A stretch of 64,000 bases of DNA from Aphanothece saxicola GSE-SYN-MK-01-06B. Lineage in GTDB: Bacteria > Cyanobacteriota > Cyanobacteriia > PCC-6307 > Cyanobiaceae. Every line of letters begins with the position of its first letter. Within the stretch, counting starts at the first letter, position 1. Below the pieces are notes generated by a model. That model was not told where the DNA came from, did not search any database, and saw nothing but the letters and a program-made list of their open reading frames with translations. Both the position numbers and the translations under genes were made by a program. The stretch covers positions 372,001-436,000 of the forward strand of contig JAHHGT010000002.1 of the NCBI GenBank assembly GCA_019359745.1, given 5' to 3'. This document shows positions 5,483 through 16,107 of the stretch, piece by piece.

Positions 5483-7492
5483 ATGCCATTCCAGCTGCAC
5501 GCCCCCTACGTCCCCAAGGGAGACCAACCCACCGCCATCGAAGCGATGGTGAAGGGTGTTGACGGTGGCGAACGCTTCCAGACGCTGCTGGGCGCCACCG
5601 GCACCGGCAAGACCTTCTCGATCGCCAACGTGATCGCCCGCACCGGGCGTCCCACCCTGGTGCTGGCCCATAACAAGACGCTGGCGGCCCAGCTCTGCAA
5701 CGAGCTGCGGGAATTCTTCCCCAACAATGCCGTCGAATATTTCATCTCCTATTACGACTACTACCAGCCCGAGGCCTACGTTCCCGTCTCGGACACCTAC
5801 ATCGCCAAGACCGCCTCGATCAATGAGGAGATCGACATGCTGCGGCACTCGGCCACCCGCTCGCTGTTCGAGCGGCGGGATGTGATCGTGGTGGCCTCGA
5901 TCAGCTGCATCTACGGCCTGGGCATCCCTTCGGAATACCTCAAGGCCGCCGTCAAGTTCGAGGTGGGTGACAAGCTCGATCTGCGCGGCTCGCTCCGGGA
6001 TCTGGTCAACAACCAGTACTCCCGCAACGACATCGAGATCAGCCGCGGACGCTTCCGGGTGCGGGGCGATGTGCTGGAGATCGGACCTGCCTACGAAGAC
6101 CGGCTGGTGCGGATCGAGCTGTTCGGCGATGAAGTGGAAGCGATCCGCTACGTGGATCCCACCACCGGTGAAATCCTCCAGAGCCTGGAGACGATCAACA
6201 TCTATCCGGCCAAGCACTTCGTGACGCCCAAGGAGCGGCTGCAGGGTGCGATCCAGGCGATCCGGGCCGAGCTGCGCGAACGCCTGGATGTGCTCAACGG
6301 CCAGGGGCGACTGCTGGAGGCCCAGCGCCTGGAGCAGCGCACCACCTACGACCTGGAGATGCTGGAGCAGGTGGGCTACTGCAACGGGGTCGAGAACTAC
6401 GCCCGGCACCTGGCGGGCCGGGAGGCCGGTACACCGCCCGAGTGCCTGATCGATTACTTCCCCGACGACTGGCTGCTGGTGGTGGATGAAAGCCATGTCA
6501 CCTGCTCCCAGCTGCAGGCCATGTACAACGGCGACCAGAGCCGCAAGCAGGTGCTGATCGAGCACGGCTTCCGCCTGCCCAGCGCCGCCGACAACCGGCC
6601 CCTCAAGGGGGACGAGTTCTGGACAAAGGCGCGGCAGACGATCTTCGTCTCGGCCACCCCCGGCGCCTGGGAGCTGGCCCAGAGCAAGGGCCAGGTGGTG
6701 GAGCAGGTGATCCGCCCCACCGGTGTCCTCGACCCGATCGTGGAGGTGCGCCCCTCCGAGGGCCAGATCGATGATCTGCTCGGTGAGATCCGCGTGCGGG
6801 CCGATCGCCAGGAGCGGGTGCTGGTCACCACCCTCACCAAGCGCATGGCGGAGGACCTCACCGATTACCTGGCCGAGAACGGCGTGCGGGTGCGCTACCT
6901 GCACTCGGAGATCCATTCGATCGAACGGATCGAGATCATCCAGGATCTGCGCAACGGCGCCTACGACGTGCTGGTGGGGGTCAACCTGCTGCGGGAGGGC
7001 CTCGACCTGCCCGAGGTGTCCCTGGTGGCGATCCTCGACGCCGACAAGGAGGGCTTCCTGCGGGCGGAACGCTCCCTCATCCAGACGATCGGCCGGGCAG
7101 CCCGCCACATCGATGGGGTGGCCCTCCTCTATGCCGACAACCTCACCGATTCGATGGCCAAGGCGATTTCCGAGACGGAGCGGCGCCGGGTGATCCAGCA
7201 CGCCTACAACGAGCGCCACGGCATCACCCCCACCCCCGCCGGCAAGCGGGCGGGCAACTCGATCCTCACCTTCCTGGAGCTCTCACGCCGCCTCAGTGAC
7301 GACCAGCTGGAAGAGGCGGCCGACCAGGCCGAGCACAACGCGGTGTCCCTCGATGCGCTGCCCGAGCTGATCCGGCAGCTGGAGGAGAAGATGAAGGTGG
7401 CGGCGAAGAGCCTGGAGTTCGAGGAGGCCGCCAACCTGCGCGATCGCATCAAGAACCTGCGCCAGAAGCTTGTGGGCCGGCCGGCGGCCTAG
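5483..7492 (+). CDS. uvrB: Excinuclease ABC subunit B
   Basis: UvrB is the damage-verifying helicase-like subunit of nucleotide-excision repair, working with UvrA and UvrC. The 669-residue protein has Walker A GATGTGKT at residues 37-44, the beta-hairpin region with [10 protein letters not shown], a VDESH Walker B-type motif, the helicase motif QTIGRAARH, and the C-terminal UVR domain that contacts UvrC at about 630-657. Length and order match the family. I found no LexA-like operator upstream. The stop codon overlaps the 3' end of convergent mscL by 4 bases. Confidence 0.98.
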
Positions 7493-13609: not shown

Positions 13610-14632
13610 TTATCGACGTGGGGCGTTGCCGGGCTGGGTCAGGGCGGCCAGCAGGAAGCCGTCCCGGAAGGCGTCGCCGGGGTCGGCGCCACGCTTGAGG
13701 GCGGCCTCCACATCGAGCAGGCGGCGCAGCAGGGCCAGCAGCTGCTCAGGGCTGTGGCCGCGGATCTGTTTGCGCATGACGTAGATCCGCTTGGGATTGC
13801 CGATCCCCGCCGCCTTGGCAATCACGGCCACGTCCTGCTCGCCACTGCGCTCCAGCAGGCACACCCACAGCCAGCCCCGGATCTGGCTGGCCAGGGCCGC
13901 CACAAGGCGCAGGGCCGGTTCGTTGGCCTCCAGCAGCGCTTCCACCAGGGCGATCGCCTCCGCGGGGTGCTGGGCCAGCAGGGCGTCCCCCACGGCCAGG
14001 CTGCTGGTGACCTGGCCGCCGATCAGGGCGGCCACCGCCTCGGCCGTGATTGGTCCGCCGCCACGGCCATCGCCACGGCCATCGCAGCTGCCGGCGTGAA
14101 GCGCCAGCTTCTCCAGCTCGCTGGCGAGCCGCAGGCCGTCGCTGCCGATCGCTTCGGCCAGCGCTTCGGCCGCCCCCGGGGCCAGGGCCAGACCACGCTC
14201 CCGGGCGGCACTCTCCACCCGCTCGATCTGGCCGGCCCCGTCCCAGATGGGCGGCAAGGTGAAGGATCGCTCCTCCGCCACGGCCCTCAGCCGCTTGGTG
14301 GTACGCAGCCGGGCGTCGGGCTTGCCCTCGCTCACCAGGAACAGGTGGCCATCGGCGGGGATCAGCTCGAGGGCGGTCTCCAGCTGGGCGGCCAGCTCCG
14401 CCGGACAGGCCTGGCAGAAGGGACTGCGCTGCAGCACCACCACCCGGGCCCCGGCGCCGAAGGGGGCCGTTCGGGCCTCCTCCAGGGCTTGGGCCGCCTG
14501 GCCGGGATCGCCACCATCGAGGCGGCTGAGGTTGATCGTGGCCCAGGCCGGATCCACCAGGGCCTCGACCTGGGCCGCCAGGGACCGCTGGCGGGCGGCT
14601 TCATCGTCGCCCCAGTAGAGGTGAATCGGCAT
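13610..14632 (-). CDS. holA: DNA polymerase III delta subunit
   Basis: The delta subunit belongs to the clamp-loader complex that opens the beta clamp during replication. The 340-residue protein starts MPIHLYWGDDE, matching the degenerate AAA+ N-terminus of cyanobacterial delta subunits. It continues with LFLVSEGKPDAR, the lid region (LASELEKLALH) and the C-terminal collar helices (GNPKRIYVMRKQIRGHSPEQLLALL). Its ATG shares one base with the stop of the upstream antitoxin-PIN fusion gene (TGATG), so its translation may depend on ribosomes finishing that gene. lysC follows 28 bases downstream. Confidence 0.92.
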   Translation of the reverse strand: MPIHLYWGDDEAARQRSLAAQVEALVDPAWATINLSRLDGGDPGQAAQALEEARTAPFGAGARVVVLQRSPFCQACPAELAAQLETALELIPADGHLFLVSEGKPDARLRTTKRLRAVAEERSFTLPPIWDGAGQIERVESAARERGLALAPGAAEALAEAIGSDGLRLASELEKLALHAGSCDGRGDGRGGGPITAEAVAALIGGQVTSSLAVGDALLAQHPAEAIALVEALLEANEPALRLVAALASQIRGWLWVCLLERSGEQDVAVIAKAAGIGNPKRIYVMRKQIRGHSPEQLLALLRRLLDVEAALKRGADPGDAFRDGFLLAALTQPGNAPRR

Positions 14633-15300
14633 CAGGGCAGGGGCGCCGGCAGGGGGAGGGCGGCGAGCAGGAGGGGGTCCCGGCTGATCATCGCCGTGGC
14701 GCCCCCCTGCAGGGCCGAGGCCAGCTCCAGGGCCACCTCGGGTGCCATCGCGGTGTGGCTGCCTGGCCGTTGCAGCCGCGCCGCCGCCAGGGCGACCTGG
14801 GGCGTGAGGCTCACCAGGCTCCAGGCCCCGGGGTCGCTGAACACCGCTTCGTAGCGGGCCGCCAGGGCCTCATCCCCGAGGCGCAGGGGGCCTTCCATCA
14901 GCGTCATCAAGGTGGCCATGCTGAGCACGCCCCGCCAGCGGCCTGCCGCGATCGAGGCGATCAGGGGCTCCGCGTGGCGGCTCGAGGCGTCGCCGCGCAA
15001 ATAAGGGATCAGCACCGTGGCGTCGACGGCCACAGCCGAGCCGAGGCTCAGGCTGGCGCTGCTCTCCAGGGGCTGGACCGGCCAAGGTTGGCTCGGCGGG
15101 AGGGGGTCAGGCCAGCAGGCGCGGCCGCTGCCCTTGAGGCTGATCAGGGCCTGCCGCTGGGGACGGTGGCGGCGCCAGAGCGGCACCAGGGCCGCCACCG
15201 GATGGCCGTGGCGCGAAATCAGGGTCTCCTCGCCCCCATGGGCCCGATCGAGCAGCTCGGGAAAGCGCTTCCTGGCCTCCAGGACGCCGAGGGTGTCCAT
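14632..15300 (-). CDS. Phd/YefM antitoxin-PIN toxin single-chain fusion
   Basis: This 222-residue protein joins two normally separate toxin-antitoxin partners. Residues 1-65 match a Phd/YefM antitoxin: MDTLGVLEARKRFPELLDRA, GGEETLISRHGHPVAALVPL and LKGSGRACW, the last being typical of the antitoxin tail. A 30-residue Pro/Ser-rich linker leads to a PIN ribonuclease-like domain at about 95-222, with VAVDATVLIPYL, TLMEGPLRLGD, MAPEVALELASAL (Glu at the usual third Asp) and ISRDPLLL. The frame is open throughout, so no frameshift is needed. It may be an inactivated, self-neutralised toxin or a regulator. A perfect TGTACA-based palindrome lies 25 bases upstream, and its stop overlaps the holA start. 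Confidence 0.82.
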   Translation of the reverse strand: MDTLGVLEARKRFPELLDRAHGGEETLISRHGHPVAALVPLWRRHRPQRQALISLKGSGRACWPDPLPPSQPWPVQPLESSASLSLGSAVAVDATVLIPYLRGDASSRHAEPLIASIAAGRWRGVLSMATLMTLMEGPLRLGDEALAARYEAVFSDPGAWSLVSLTPQVALAAARLQRPGSHTAMAPEVALELASALQGGATAMISRDPLLLAALPLPAPLP

Positions 15301-15324
15301 GGTGTTGGCGGCCAGAATTGAGTT

Positions 15325-15341
15325 CTGTACACAATGTACAG
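15325..15341. promoter_or_regulatory. Predicted autoregulatory operator of the Phd-PIN fusion gene
   Basis: The sequence is a perfect inverted repeat, CTGTACA, three bases, TGTACAG, containing two TGTACA hexamers with centres 9 bases apart. YefM-YoeB operators are known to be built from TGTACA cores, and Phd sites are similar palindromes. The start codon of the adjacent Phd/YefM-type gene is at 15300, so the palindrome sits where a repressor would block initiation. Binding is inferred. Confidence 0.6.
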
Positions 15342-15444
15342 GTTTTGATTTGGCTCGCCAGAGGCCTCCGCCCTCCCGGACCACGGCCACCGCCACGGCC
15401 AGGGTGCATCCCGTAGCCTCGCCGCTTCCCGTCCCGGTGCCCCC

Positions 15445-16107
15445 ATGCCGCGCCAGGCGAGCAACAGCCTCGAGGCCTCCCTCGATCACCCGATCTTCCA
15501 GGAGAGTGTGCGACGCATCCGCGCCTGGCTGGGGCCCACCGGCCTGGAGGGGGTGGAGCAGGAGGTTCTGGAGCGCCTGGTGCACAGCAGCGGCGATCTG
15601 GCCCTGGCGCCGGATCTGCGCCTCGGTCCGGGGGCTTGCGCCGCCGGCCTCAAAGCCCTGGCGGCCGGCGCGCCGATCCTCACCGACACGGCGATGGCGG
15701 CGGCGGCCGTGGCCCCCATGGCCCGGCGCACCTTCGCCAATCCGGTGCGTTCCGTGCTGGCCTGGGCGCCGCCCGTGGCACCCGCCGGAGGCACCCGGGC
15801 GGCAGCAGGGATGGAACGGGCCCTGGCGGAGCATCCGGGGGCGGTGGTGCTGGTGGGCAGCGCCCCCACGGCCCTGGAGCGGCTGCTGGAGCTGGTCGAG
15901 GCTGGAATCATCGCCGCGCCAGCCCTGGTGATCGGCATGCCGGTGGGGTTCGTGGGGGTGGCCGAGAGCAAGCGCCATCTCGCCGCCAGCGCCCTCACCC
16001 AGATCCGCCTGGAGGGCAGCAAGGGCGGCGCCGGCCTGGTGGGTGCCGCCGCCAATGCCCTGCTGCGCCGGGCCTGGCTGGATCAGGCGGCCCTGGATCC
16101 CGCCTGA
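15445..16107 (+). CDS. cobH: Precorrin-8X methylmutase
   Basis: CobH/CbiC moves a methyl group from C-11 to C-12 of the corrin ring, making hydrogenobyrinate or cobyrinate for (pseudo)cobalamin synthesis. The 220-residue protein shows the N-terminal [12 protein letters not shown], the catalytic histidine in VHSSGD (His47), [12 protein letters not shown], and the signature [15 protein letters not shown]. Length is normal. It is divergent from the Phd-PIN gene and overlaps the 3' end of mutS by 25 bases. No cobalamin riboswitch was seen in the 144-base upstream gap. Confidence 0.95.

Follow-up and report, generated by a model that had tools for sequence, protein, structure and literature searches.

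A TGTACA inverted repeat before a Phd/YefM-PIN fusion gene, very probably its operator, and the recurrence of the site in fusion-bearing genomes

When an antitoxin is joined to a dead toxin half, the product may be an evolutionary dead end or a working protein, a question left open in the available text of PMC4826407. The locus described here raises it in a concrete form. Within the window (the whole 64-kb stretch of DNA analysed), a gene that joins a Phd/YefM antitoxin domain to a PIN-like part is preceded by a pair of TGTACA hexamers. A sequence-only reading had pointed out that YefM-family antitoxins bind TGTACA cores, and paired cores are indeed described for YefM and Axe in the accessible parts of PMC7730913 and PMC4803016. 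Is the pair the operator of the fusion, and is the fusion a functional autorepressor? Our comparisons make it probable that the protein is a domesticated toxin-antitoxin fusion acting as an autorepressor at 15325-15341, with extra sites on the chromosome. The features concerned are as follows.

13610-14632, minus strand: holA, DNA polymerase III delta subunit, downstream and co-directional (PF06144/PF21694)
14632-14634, minus strand: fusion stop codon TGA, with a one-base overlap with the holA ATG (TGATG), read from the sequence
14632-15300, minus strand: Phd/YefM-PIN fusion gene, 222 aa (stop at 14634-14632; homologues in 51/400 family genomes)
14677-15030, minus strand: degenerate PIN domain, residues 91-208 (PF01850, E 7.5e-4, below the Pfam cut-off)
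15178-15300, minus strand: Phd/YefM domain, residues 1-41 (PF02604, E 4.3e-9, above cut-off)
15325-15341, no strand: operator-like inverted repeat CTGTACACAATGTACAG, two TGTACA 9 bp apart, read from the sequence and kept in orthologues
15445-16107, plus strand: cobH/cbiC, divergent neighbour (PF02570, E 1.2e-54)

The inverted repeat and the gene that follows it

The two hexamers, at 15326-15331 and 15335-15340, are each palindromic, and in CTGTACACAATGTACAG two 7-bp arms flank a 3-bp centre that is not self-complementary. The sequence-only reading had described a perfect 17-base palindrome 25 bases before the fusion start. Both hexamers are present and the motif does precede the gene, but 14 of the 17 positions are self-complementary and the gap to the ATG (15298-15300, minus strand) counts 24 bases. 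With up to two mismatches allowed, CTGTACANNNTGTACAG is found once in the 64 kb, where 0.02 copies are expected, and 2 of 100 shuffles gave one. No other two TGTACA in the window have starts at a distance of 6 to 39 bp. Single hexamers are themselves commoner in the window than expected (8 vs 1.7), so that one on its own would carry little weight; the six others stand at 6522, 32069, 44421, 45444, 48418 and 51258. A scan of 15250-15480 gave no match to a sigma-70-type promoter. The scan does report a terminator-like stem followed by TTTTGATTTG, as expected if the hairpin were a plus-strand transcription terminator. However, the motif occupies the gap between divergent genes, the T-run is not conserved in orthologues and T-runs are rare at the remote copies described below; this reading has been rejected, and we give it practically no weight.

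The fusion scores 36.4 bits against PF02604, above the cut-off of 29.8 that defines the Phd/YefM family, and this domain is matched at E 0.01 in all 26 homologues scanned; the PIN domain is matched at the same threshold in 15 of the 26. Alignment of the fusion profile with nine local PIN toxins by hhalign gave a probability of 95.6%, while structure prediction from 13 close sequences gave no usable model (pLDDT 39.1). A sequence search of the PDB with the fusion profile at E 0.01 returned a single match, to VapB46 (6jqy), over the N-terminal part (E 7e-5). A sample of 400 family genomes yielded homologues at E <= 1e-10 in 51, and close relatives in named records include Cyanobium, Synechococcus, Aphanothece cf. 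minutissima and 'Microcystis elabens'. A PADLOC run reported nothing, and a plasmid search gave one partial antitoxin match. Where a type II toxin-antitoxin system has a separate adjacent toxin gene, the toxin-like part is here in the same chain and the next gene is holA.

The order cobH (divergent, upstream), fusion, holA (co-directional, downstream) is found at 51 of 53 homologous loci, the two exceptions being short contigs (L230 without cobH, L234 without holA). The junction with holA reads TGATG in 14 of 15 same-genus genes and TGAATG in the remaining one. Given that the fusion gene runs straight into holA, the amount of a DNA polymerase III subunit may here be under the control of an antitoxin-type repressor.

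Two relatives differ at this place. In G019 a pair of separate Phd/YefM and PIN genes, from a different subfamily, lies in the cobH-holA gap (L181, 304-1037), and thus toxin-antitoxin genes have entered this gap on more than one occasion. In G040, CAG stands where the usual fusion ATG is found (L005:2160), with no in-frame ATG, GTG or TTG upstream; on this sequence, the gene must start elsewhere or be impaired.

Conservation of the site and state of the protein

In 16 same-genus (g1) orthologues, the mean column identity is 0.99 over the 17-bp block, 0.64 over the 30 bp before it and 0.73 over the 18 bp after it. A seventeenth row, the contig-end remnant L020 with two arm mismatches, is left out of these means; L011 and L018 have one arm mismatch each. 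The distance from block to start is steady at 23-27 bp in the g1 orthologues and that to cobH is very variable. The sequence-only reading would have been contradicted by a lack of the palindrome in orthologous loci, and the comparison did not contradict it. A relaxed pair, [CT]GTAC[AG]-N3-[CT]GTAC[AG], lies within 150 bp upstream at 41 of 53 homologous loci vs 0 of 106 control stretches inside genes, and the exact TGTACA-N3-TGTACA at 29 of the 53. The 12 loci without the relaxed pair comprise five near misses (L011, L213, L216, L221, L224), two that keep one TGTACA (L214, L220), two with partial or broken genes (L232, L234) and three with nothing operator-like within 150 bp upstream (L197, L202, L227). 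Symmetry is kept in some divergent operators (CGTACGGACCGTACG, CGTACAGTCTGTACG), and those of L225 and L228 contain four TGTACA in 9-bp steps. At three g9 loci (L210, L218, L223) the fusion's own operator is CGTACANTCTGTACA, so that the exact TGTACA pair may be the wrong query in that genus.

TGTACA is absent from all nine fusion-less cobH/holA gaps read. Fifteen other Phd/YefM genes, 12 of them from G000 or same-genus relatives and with G072 and spirochaete MAG genes among the set, have neither TGTACA nor the relaxed pair within 150 bp upstream (0/15). Because the site is kept near the fusion start and is missing from fusion-less gaps and from other Phd/YefM genes, the palindrome is tied to the fusion, and on this comparative evidence it is very probably its operator. 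The earlier suggestion that the DNA-binding half has probably kept its site is likewise supported by the conservation in orthologues. Two other attributions were rejected, that of a generic Phd/YefM operator on the 0/15 count and that of a cobH operator on the variable distance to cobH and the fusion-less gaps without TGTACA.

The protein itself appears to be maintained. Across 15 orthologues, dN/dS is 0.13 for residues 1-45, 0.56 for residues 46-63, 0.82 for the linker (64-86) and 0.26 for the PIN part. Judged by these ratios, the fusion protein is under purifying selection. Since the value is below 1 in both domains, at about 0.13 in the Phd part and 0.26 in the PIN part, decay is argued against, in agreement with the proposal that the gene is functional rather than decaying.

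What is maintained in the PIN half does not appear to be its catalytic site. Four alignment columns, acidic in 14-17 of the 17 local PIN toxins, correspond to residues 93, 133, 189 and 208 of the fusion; MAFFT with these 17 toxins places D93, T133, V189 and D208 there, and hhalign against nine PIN toxins from the fetched loci places D93, T130, V189 and D208. Twenty-six homologues were compared, chosen among the 53 loci so as to be intact and well spread. Residue 93 is D in 24 of them and E in two, residue 133 is R in 15, T in eight, E in two and H in one, and residue 208 is D in 12, H in nine, N in four and Q in one; residues 130 and 189 are acidic in none. The canonical quartet is therefore complete in 0 of 26 homologues, whether taken at 93/133/189/208 (MAFFT) or at 93/130/189/208 (hhalign). 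By alignment, the toxin half has lost its canonical catalytic residues and looks catalytically inactive. At residue 192, E is found in 24 homologues and D in two, and residue 136 is E or D in 20. Taking 136 as one of the acids and moving the third and fourth gives a less likely register, in which 8 or 4 of the 26 homologues would have all four, so that the PIN half may have a residual or altered activity.

These acids have to be weighed in another light as well, as the fusion could still be an active, self-inhibited toxin like EzeT, with ordinary autoregulation and with other acids used in its PIN half. Purifying selection on that half agrees with this, as do the acidic residues at 93 and 192 in 26/26 and at 136 in 20/26, and EzeT is a known single-chain system according to the text available of PMC4826407. 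However, no homologue has the full quartet in the registers found (0/26), D stands at 208 in just 12 of them, and R or T is the usual residue at 133. We consider an active toxin quite unlikely.

The autorepressor reading, which we prefer, may be put as follows. The repeat at 15325-15341 would be the DNA-binding site of the Phd/YefM half, within the promoter region of the fusion. One dimer would sit on each TGTACA, the two dimers lying adjacent at 9 bp, and accumulating protein would shut off the fusion-holA transcript that the two genes presumably share. The PIN half would no longer be a normal RNase and may be kept as a folded part, perhaps pairing or bridging dimers, while the same protein would occupy a few further chromosomal copies of the site.

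Further copies of the site on the chromosome

Whole genomes were scanned for the exact pair, in a set of 99 (the genome itself and 98 relatives) and in 400 genomes of the family. In the first set it occurs in 17 genomes, namely 15 g1 genomes with the fusion, G038 and the distant G079. In G038, whose assembly is 88% complete, cobH, holA and the fusion are unmatched at that locus. Among the 400 family genomes, 37 have fusion and site, 9 the site only, 14 the fusion only and 340 neither. There are 173 exact sites in the 51 fusion genomes, with 1 for a reversed-pattern control, and 20 in the 349 fusion-less genomes, with 12 for the control. Five of these 20 are in G038 and three in G285, and the remaining 12 are at control level. 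With the fusion's own promoter sites excluded, the gene-site association has a genus-stratified chi2 of 34 (strata g64, g74 and g89 left out). The tie is present in genera g60 and g75 as well and is absent within g9 (p 0.66) and g77 (p 1.0). In the holA tree (25 of 30 rows readable) the g1 fusion genomes all fall on one side of one branch (15/15 readable fusion rows), and the g1 counts are therefore non-independent. For sites with one mismatch in 42 g1 genomes, the medians are 7 in the 16 with fusion vs 2 in the 26 others, a weaker difference than with exact sites (reversed control 0-2 per genome). By these counts, in fusion-bearing genomes the site is spread to, or kept at, a few other chromosomal places, and the fusion protein probably binds a few of these further copies too.

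Sites and intact gene do not coincide everywhere. Broken or partial fusions are accompanied by five sites in G228, two in G262 and three in G217. The frame-broken fusion of G009, by contrast, goes with no exact site. Sites are also present in G182, G274 and six other genomes in which an intact fusion was not found. In G285 (L301/L307) the fusion has been reduced by two in-frame deletions to 73 residues, still in the gap from cobH to holA; a coupling of holA translation to it is perhaps the reason why the frame persists. Three TGTACA-N3-TGTACA sites lie elsewhere in this genome. Both G009 and G285 count in favour of the autorepressor reading. Genomes with sites in which an intact fusion was not found would suit another DNA-binding protein of the same lineages reading TGTACA-N3-TGTACA, with the fusion merely downstream of one site, and so would the single clade of the g1 fusions and sites and an unfused Phd/YefM gene in G274 (L300) with two TGTACA 8 bp apart upstream. 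Nevertheless, the gene-site tie recurs in g60 and g75 and the distance from operator to start is nearly fixed in g1, which makes a different regulator very improbable.

The positions of the remote copies were read for 106 sites outside the fusion's own promoter in 25 genomes, a subset of all those listed, with genes called by codon score; an intact fusion was not found in five of the 25 (G038, G079, G182, G274, G285). The sites comprise 29 between convergent, 50 between tandem and 16 between divergent genes, 6 inside a called frame and 5 without a called neighbour on one side. Within 100 bp, 65 of 112 facing 3' ends have a site vs 17 of 82 facing 5' ends, as raw counts. Because they lie near gene 3' ends, most remote sites are not promoter operators, and the idea of a promoter regulon is weakened. 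The wider consensus is about ATTC-TGTACA-NNN-TGTACA-GAAT, the commonest centre being GCC/GGC (67/106).

Several places recur, namely between a HEAT-repeat gene and the thiC TPP riboswitch, by comEC and beyond the lepA 3' end. At three others (nusB/ftsY, mazG/RF-1-like and rimM/manC) both flanking genes are common to g9 and g75. A thiC match was obtained in 40 of 42 genomes, and 30 upstream regions were fetched, of which 25 were readable by a start motif; the exact pair is present in 11 of 17 rows from the fusion clade or G038 vs 0 of 8 other readable rows, where no inverted repeat exceeds 5-6 bp. The palindromic arms around the core upstream of thiC (L309-L325) are up to 19 bp long and co-vary between species (AGTT/AACT, GGTT/AACC). 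Seven sites in G038 and other g1 genomes (L123, L138, L145, L154, L156, L185, L187) have the TTG/CAA centre of the fusion's own operator and long similar flanks; this class looks like a dispersed repeat. The site of L138 lies 570 bp from a frame that is transposase-like by eye.

Could all these sites be REP-like dispersed extragenic palindromes, present for reasons of their own such as an RNA 3'-end hairpin or mobility, and linked to the fusion by shared ancestry? Much of their placing would fit, with many at gene ends or in convergent gaps, as would the 23 of 106 that have uninterrupted arms of at least 5 further pairs, the long flanks common to the TTG/CAA class, and the confinement of the thiC pair and of the g1 fusion genomes to one clade. 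Per genome, however, there are only 1-11 exact sites. The TGTACA core is constant where arms and centre differ between sites, with the reservation that the search itself asked for exact TGTACA; an adjacent T-run is found at only 6 of 106 sites, three places with both flanking genes are common to g9 and g75, and the fusion-less genomes other than G038 and G285 do not exceed the control. We regard this explanation as unlikely, with a modest chance of being right.

A broader role for the autorepressor may also be considered. As a one-chain, sequence-specific chromosomal protein, the fusion would repress the operon that it forms with holA. At the remote copies, mostly next to gene 3' ends and in convergent gaps, it would act as a boundary or roadblock and help to end or separate transcription in bacteria without Rho. 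In Synechococcus elongatus, which has no Rho, most transcription units are reported not to be ended by known pathways (PMC13289151, in the text available), and the gene-end sites bear on that open question. We put this proposal forward as a speculative and rather unlikely one. Whatever their role, the remote sites that track the gene provide exact DNA sequences for testing the fusion protein. Beyond what the sequence-only reading had proposed, the locus has what looks like a catalytically lost toxin half, a gene that runs into holA, a 9-bp spacing and a site that recurs across the genome.

Comparison with known systems

No paper naming this fusion protein was found among the matches listed, which cover titles and the starts of abstracts, with subscription papers mostly outside. 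The closest parallel for the site is offered by the YefM-YoeB and Axe-Txe operators, where a Phd/YefM domain goes with paired TGTACA upstream of the antitoxin gene (accessible parts of PMC7730913 and PMC4803016). The cores of the YefM-YoeB operator are 12 bp apart centre to centre in the portion of PMC7730913 consulted, whereas the hexamers before the fusion are 9 bp apart. The fusion also differs in having no separate toxin gene, a PIN part in place of YoeB and holA as the next gene. For the protein, the N-terminal match and the pairing of Phd with PIN recall VapBC systems with a Phd-type antitoxin such as VapB46 (6jqy). The partner of VapB46 is a PIN toxin. In contrast to these systems, the fusion is one chain and its catalytic acids are not conserved.

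Single-chain arrangements have been described before. The Phd-RelE fusion of Ralstonia eutropha (yb_293189) likewise joins a Phd antitoxin to a presumed dead toxin; its toxin part is thought inactive, and whether it is a 'dead-end' or functional was left open, as far as the text of PMC4826407 is available. The present fusion has a PIN half instead, and a working protein is favoured by the conservation of gene and operator and by remote sites whose presence follows that of the gene. EzeT and Slr1999, the latter a HicA-HicB fusion, also carry toxin and antitoxin in one polypeptide (PMC4963859 and PMC4826407, in part), but they are built from other domains and EzeT has an active kinase half.

For the remote sites, MqsA offers a precedent, as an antitoxin whose action extends to other genes by way of palindromes resembling its operator (PMC4803016, in the part available). 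It belongs to a two-gene system, unlike the fusion, and its known remote sites are promoters. REP elements resemble the remote sites in being repeated extragenic palindromes near gene ends; the sites described here differ from them in being few in copy number, in having a fixed TGTACA core and in being tied to one protein.
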